A DNA stretch of 64,000 nt, taken from NCBI GenBank assembly GCA_947494335.1, contig CANLUT010000005.1, positions 1-64,000 on the forward strand, written 5' to 3'. A program made the translations under genes and the position numbers. Every line of letters starts with the position of its first letter. Positions within the stretch are counted from its first letter, which is position 1. The DNA comes from Oligoflexales bacterium (GTDB lineage: Bacteria > Bdellovibrionota_B > Oligoflexia > Oligoflexales > RGVZ01). This document shows positions 1 through 275 of the stretch, in pieces. The notes beneath the pieces are model-generated. The model saw only the letters and a program-made list of their open reading frames with translations, did not search any database and had not been told where the DNA came from.

Positions 1-64
1 TGTTGTTGTTGTTGTTGTTGTTGTTGTTGTTGTTGTTGTTGTTGTTGTTGTTGTTGTTGTTGTT
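1..64. repeat. TGT trinucleotide microsatellite (CAA on minus strand)
   Basis: Twenty-one perfect TGT units plus one base open the window and may continue to the left. On the minus strand they are read in frame as CAA (Gln) codons of the lipoprotein starting at 275. Because the unit is three bases, slippage would change the length of the polyglutamine tract without breaking the frame. Perfect codon identity (all CAA, no CAG) indicates recent expansion rather than old selected protein sequence. Confidence 0.97.
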
Positions 65-275
65 CAGGAATTTGATTGTTTGTTGCGGGGCGCTGATCAT
101 CGTCCTGTGGAAGTTGGCTCTGACCATTCCCTCCGGTAGAGTTACCGGAGTTGTTGATTGAGTTGTTAGATGGCTGGAGCGTGACAATTCTTGCCTTGCG
201 ATTACAGCCGACAACTACACTGCTTGTGCTGATCGCAATTACTAAATGCAGAGCTTTCAGTTGTCCAACACTCAT
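1..275 (-). CDS. Partial lipoprotein with polyglutamine tract (runs off left edge)
   Basis: This reading frame starts at ATG 275 behind a GTGAGG-like ribosome site and stays open to the window edge, so the C-terminus is missing. The N-terminus has a hydrophobic stretch ending in the lipobox VVGC with Cys24, so it is probably an exported lipoprotein. About 45 residues rich in Asn, Ser, Gly and Gln follow, then at least 20 consecutive CAA codons giving a polyglutamine run from residue 72. Just after the Cys it reads CNRKARIV, which resembles CQRSARQV in the divergently transcribed lipoprotein at 522, suggesting that the two are related. No function can be assigned. It is too short at this edge for a normal gene call, but start, lipobox and low-complexity design agree. 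Confidence 0.7.
   Translation of the reverse strand, partial: MSVGQLKALHLVIAISTSSVVVGCNRKARIVTLQPSNNSINNSGNSTGGNGQSQLPQDDDQRPATNNQIPEQQQQQQQQQQQQQQQQQQQQ

Follow-up and report, generated by a model that had tools for sequence, protein, structure and literature searches.

A predicted envelope lipoprotein with a pure CAA-encoded polyglutamine tract in an Oligoflexales bacterium

Results

A predicted lipoprotein gene at the end of a contig

The window analysed here, 64,000 nucleotides from the genome of an Oligoflexales bacterium, begins at base 1 of contig C5 (277,827 bp), which physically ends there. At this left edge lies the 5′ part of a gene on the minus strand (3..275; 91 codons in the window). 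The open reading frame runs from an ATG at 275, with an SD-like GTGAGG at 285-280 ahead of it, and encodes 71 residues followed by 20 complete CAA codons and one partial codon. Its N-terminus reads as a signal peptide, MSVGQLKALHLVIAISTSSVVVG (207..275, minus strand), that ends in the lipobox VVG|C, with Cys24 at 206-204 and Asn at position +2. As read from the sequence, MSVGQLKALHLVIAISTSSVVVGC has the features of a bacterial lipoprotein, namely: a Lys in the n-region, a hydrophobic h-region and a lipobox with the invariant Cys. According to the lipoprotein sorting rule, Asp at +2 is a retention signal, and the polyQ lipoprotein has Asn there. From these sequence motifs, we infer that the protein is likely lipid-anchored and sorted to the outer membrane, where it may face either the cell surface or the periplasm. 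Residues 24-71 (63..206, minus strand) form a linker of 48 residues, rich in Asn, Gln, Ser and Gly, that leads into the pure CAA tract (1..62, minus strand; 20 full codons at 62-3 and CA at 2..1).

Two further lipoprotein genes lie next to this one. The divergent neighbour (522..1274, plus strand; lipobox VSGC) has a Gly/Ser/Pro/Asn linker with a 9-nt repeat at 809-829, and it is followed by a third lipoprotein gene (1286..2266, plus strand; LNAC). Common ancestry of the neighbour and the N-terminus of the polyQ lipoprotein, suggested by the shared pattern GC[NQ]R.AR.V, is not supported by BLASTP, whose match (E 0.03) covers the linker only. The next gene encodes a PDZ-domain protein (2267..2995, minus strand) and belongs to the conserved backbone of the region.

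Purity of the CAA tract

The CAA array is by far the strongest tandem array of the window (TRF: period 3, 21.3 copies, 100% match). The window has 16 matches to (CAA)5, against a chance expectation of 0.00; all of them fall within the polyQ tract, and (CAA)5 is absent from 100 shuffles of the window. Among 58 ORFs in a 76-kb sample, CAA makes up 45% of the Gln codons, and no homopolymer run of more than 5 residues other than the polyQ tract is found. At this codon usage, codon choice alone would give 39 CAA codons in a row, the number found on contig C6 (see below), with p of about 3e-14. Codon choice is therefore excluded, and the array grew at the DNA level, one unit after another. The sequence-only reading had claimed that a lipoprotein start is followed by at least 20 consecutive CAA codons, and that these form a pure, recently expanded microsatellite encoding polyglutamine. 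Both claims agree with the ORF from 275 to 3, with its 20 full codons at 62..3, and with the perfect array lying in the coding frame, for which slippage is the best explanation.

The second half of the gene

In the whole assembly, (CAA)10 occurs at two sites only: the left edge of the window and base 1 of contig C6. The latter contig starts with exactly 39 CAA codons ((CAA)39 at C6:1-117), followed by GGC, a domain of 133 aa and a stop at 519, such that bases 1-519 of C6 supply the rest of the gene. The order of the surrounding genes points to the same join. In the congener G005, plsC(-), LOG(-), PDZ(+), HAD(-) and VWA(-) lie on one contig (C39) in an uninterrupted order, and G004 has the same order save for HAD, which was not detected there. 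In the source genome (G000), plsC, LOG and PDZ are found on C5, while HAD and VWA are found on C6, and both order and strands match those of G005 if reversed C5 precedes C6. The uninterrupted gene order of the congener thus shows that C5 and C6 adjoin, and that the assembly split a single gene in the midst of its microsatellite. The lipoprotein cluster of the source genome sits at this junction, between PDZ and HAD, as part of an insertion of eight genes. Besides the polyQ lipoprotein gene, these comprise two that encode lipoproteins, two of caspase/C13-like type and three others.

Identical stretches of 149 nt, including 5S rRNA, are found at other contig ends of the source genome, and the assembly is likely of the short-read type that breaks at repeats, for which a break within the CAA array is expected. 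As a separate observation, further contig ends of this genome (L031, L034, L035, L038, L041) look like large repetitive surface proteins with Ig-like or cadherin-like character.

The C6 part alone gives a polyQ tract of at least 39 Gln. If the ends of C5 and C6 do not overlap, the tract would have about 60 Gln or more; both numbers are minima. The array is read in CAA phase on either side of the break, hence a pure array of any unit number keeps the frame. This upholds the earlier proposal that triplet slippage could change tract length without breaking the frame. A stop or frame break immediately to the left of the window, which would have spoken against a polyglutamine lipoprotein, is not what C6 contains: there, the frame stays open and leads to a domain for which homologues exist.

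Predicted fold of the C-terminal domain

The domain of 133 aa that follows the polyQ tract on C6 is matched by no Pfam or NCBIfam model, and this includes the sequence profiles of the DcrB/DUF1795 and PsbP families. Matches of the polyQ portion to Pfam models such as TFIIA and VPS13_N were dropped as low-complexity and below cut-off, and a PDB sequence search gave only weak matches to de novo TIM barrels over about 20 residues, which were rejected. An AlphaFold2 model of the domain, built on 4 sequences, reached a pLDDT of 81 and a pTM of 0.75. The predicted model is an antiparallel beta sheet with a C-terminal helix, and it is matched by known structures: Foldseek returned 17 PDB matches at E<=0.001, nearly all of them PsbP, CyanoP or DcrB (PsbP, 1.0e-5 to 9e-4; DcrB, 5e-4), followed by SciW/EagT6, LpqN and Tsi3. 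TM-scores against this fold family are moderate (0.45-0.62), with TMq of about 0.5-0.6 for the 17 matches. Thus, the domain is predicted to have the PsbP/Mog1/DcrB fold, and on the basis of this model it would be a fold relative of DcrB/DUF1795 and PsbP rather than a member of either family.

Homologues with the same layout and another linker

The C-terminal domain was found in 3 of the 56 genomes searched, namely the source genome, G035 and G013; a profile search covering 58 genomes from the phylum agreed with this. In G035, which belongs to another family, the gene is intact and encodes 247 aa consisting of a lipobox, a long low-complexity PAT/TPA linker and the domain, the latter being 38% identical to that of the polyQ protein. 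The next gene in G035 encodes a C13-like lipoprotein that shares 60% identity with the product of the gene after the polyQ gene on C6. G013 has the domain together with a C13-like next gene on contig C898, while its contig C933 stops too early to show the layout; in G009, the C13-like gene occurs alone. A further candidate relative, L027 (CP070735.1), was rejected as a chance DGWRLEQE match in an unrelated ORF of 963 aa that spans a masked (N) stretch.

The CAA array is not present in the homologues found in G035 and G013. Since G035 keeps the layout of anchor, linker and domain with another linker, the polyQ tract is the form that a variable linker has taken in one lineage. In the G013 domain (L026 1363-1989), an acidic low-complexity insert of roughly 40 residues lies between two strands, in a different loop, indicating that the fold tolerates low-complexity inserts internally as well.

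Repeats in the linkers of other lipoproteins

Repeats with units of 3n bases are also found in other lipoproteins of these bacteria. Across the 58 genomes of the phylum that were searched, only the source genome and G052 contain (CAA)12. In G052, a lipoprotein (contig C28, 1320-1862; L057) has a linker with about 15 Asn encoded by an AAC array, which is the CAA triplet in another phase. A second (CAA)12 array in G052 appears intergenic, so an array of this kind does not have to serve a function. In G002, the closest congener, the orthologue of the neighbouring gene at 522-1274 carries a perfect 9-nt array, GGAACTACA, in the same linker (8.8 copies, encoding Gly-Thr-Thr); the contig that carries it, C102, likewise starts inside the array (1-79; L075). 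Within the window, a third repeat, with a 12-nt unit, lies at 27206-27232 in the Pro/Ser/Gly linker of another lipoprotein predicted on the minus strand (26483-28393). Repeats of 3n bases thus supply linker sequence time and again in these lipoproteins.

Discussion

Proposed origin and role of the polyQ tract

We consider it probable that C5 and C6 encode one lipid-anchored protein with a slippage-made polyQ tether and a domain of the PsbP/Mog1/DcrB fold, a reading supported directly by the single gene, the purity of the array, its frame safety, the homologous layout with a different linker and the fold prediction. The product would consist of a signal peptide with its lipobox, a linker of Asn, Ser, Gly and Gln that is disordered and ends in at least 39 Gln, and the C-terminal domain. 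The array would have arisen when replication slipped within a linker in which nearly any hydrophilic sequence is acceptable. The polyQ segment would then act as a flexible tether that keeps the domain off the membrane, and gain or loss of CAA units may still shift the length of this tether while leaving the frame untouched. Two points stand against a tether: pure polyQ of such length might aggregate rather than serve as a soluble spacer, and the (CAA)12 array of G052 is intergenic. Loss of mismatch repair was rejected as the cause of the array, as both mutS (mutS1) and mutL were found in the genome; a hypermutable background is therefore unsupported, and the array coexists with mismatch repair.

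The alternatives differ mainly in what the array does at present. It could be a neutral product of accidental slippage that a permissive linker tolerates and that has no further role, an explanation to which we give a little under even odds. The different composition of the homologue's linker, the intergenic array in G052, the purity that suggests a young expansion, and the patchy occurrence of the domain (3 of 56 genomes) all fit such an accident, but arrays of different units recur in lipoprotein linkers here and elsewhere, at least marking tolerated sites. A neutral origin does not contradict a passive tether. It is unlikely that the gene is a contingency locus, in which frequent slippage alters tether length and predation, phage or surface contact selects among the variants. 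This view corresponds to the possible surface-length variation raised by the sequence-only reading. The array is a short, perfect repeat within coding sequence, it is pure and frame-safe on both flanks, and the protein is a predicted envelope lipoprotein; moreover, bacterial coding genes with trinucleotide arrays of varying length have been described, one being (CCG)n in Rv0050/ponA1 (PMC3176237). The presence of mutS and mutL, however, speaks against this view.

Less likely still is self-assembly, whereby the Asn/Gln-rich segment with at least 39 Gln would behave in an amyloid- or prion-like manner and cluster the lipoprotein on the envelope. Eukaryotic polyQ aggregates at lengths in this range, and the linker is already rich in Asn and Gln before the tract, but the homologue has a Pro-rich linker that is not expected to self-assemble. 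The fact that both CAA arrays lie exactly at contig ends might indicate that the assembler falsely added a repeat to these ends. We regard this as very improbable: the array occurs at two places of the genome only, its outer flanks are the two halves of a protein with an intact homologue, and synteny joins C5 and C6. The tethered lipoprotein remains our preferred reading.

Relation to known systems

The fold predicted for the domain of 133 aa is that of PsbP/Mog1p/DcrB (DUF1795), CyanoP, LpqN, EagT6/SciW and Tsi3, although identity to proteins of this fold is just 10-15%. To our knowledge, no PsbP/Mog1p/DcrB-fold protein has a long polyQ tether. Several members of the group are membrane-anchored lipoproteins, and the group is possibly tied to membrane-anchored complexes (PMC7716261).

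In-frame triplet arrays are known from bacterial genes. In Rv0050/ponA1, length alleles of an in-frame (CCG)n array were measured (PMC3176237). That case and ours share a coding triplet array in which unit changes are frame-neutral, whereas the array described here has at least 39 units, encodes Gln by CAA and is known from one assembly. The triplet-repeat expansion of E. coli AhpC (Ritz et al. 2001, as cited in PMC4816632) is likewise a case in which codon gain or loss by slippage changes a bacterial protein without a frameshift; as described there, it concerns one codon in an enzyme whose activity is changed, whereas in the polyQ lipoprotein the long linker lies apart from the folded domain. 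Eukaryotic polyglutamine tracts are similarly long and uninterrupted, but they are encoded mostly by CAG or mixed codons and not by pure CAA. A recent codon survey omitted prokaryotes because such polyQ stretches are too low in prevalence there (PMC12147016), and our literature search on Bdellovibrio and polyQ found no paper. What is new here is a predicted envelope lipoprotein with an uninterrupted run of 39 or more CAA codons.

Pure polyQ of at least 39 residues is very unusual in bacteria and falls within the length range at which eukaryotic polyQ aggregates. A bacterial envelope protein that carries it naturally would make it possible to test directly how cells export, tolerate and vary such a tract. 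Furthermore, repeat-tethered lipoproteins are probably under-annotated, since it is within the repeat itself that short-read assemblies break genes of this kind, as is also the case at the orthologue of the neighbouring gene in the congener G002. That envelope lipoproteins of this order repeatedly form their tethers between anchor and domain from fast-evolving perfect 3n-base repeats (CAA, AAC, GGAACTACA), with a heritable and rapidly tunable length, is a broader proposal that we hold to be unlikely; if true, the polyQ lipoprotein would be a natural bacterial polyglutamine protein arising from tunable tether length.

The gene downstream of the polyQ gene (C6:543-1439) is without a Pfam match, and its NCBIfam caspase match (E=2e-4) is below the curated cut-off. 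Its product has a His-Gly and Cys catalytic dyad, with H119 and C153 invariant in 5 homologues. Because the gene pair is conserved, one might guess, more speculatively, that the C-terminal domain binds the C13-like lipoprotein encoded by the next gene. Three predicted lipoproteins or secreted proteins of caspase/C13-like type are encoded within about 9 kb around the C5-C6 join (window 4849-6108; C6 543-1439; C6 1572-2744), two of which match Pfam Peptidase_C13 above cut-off.
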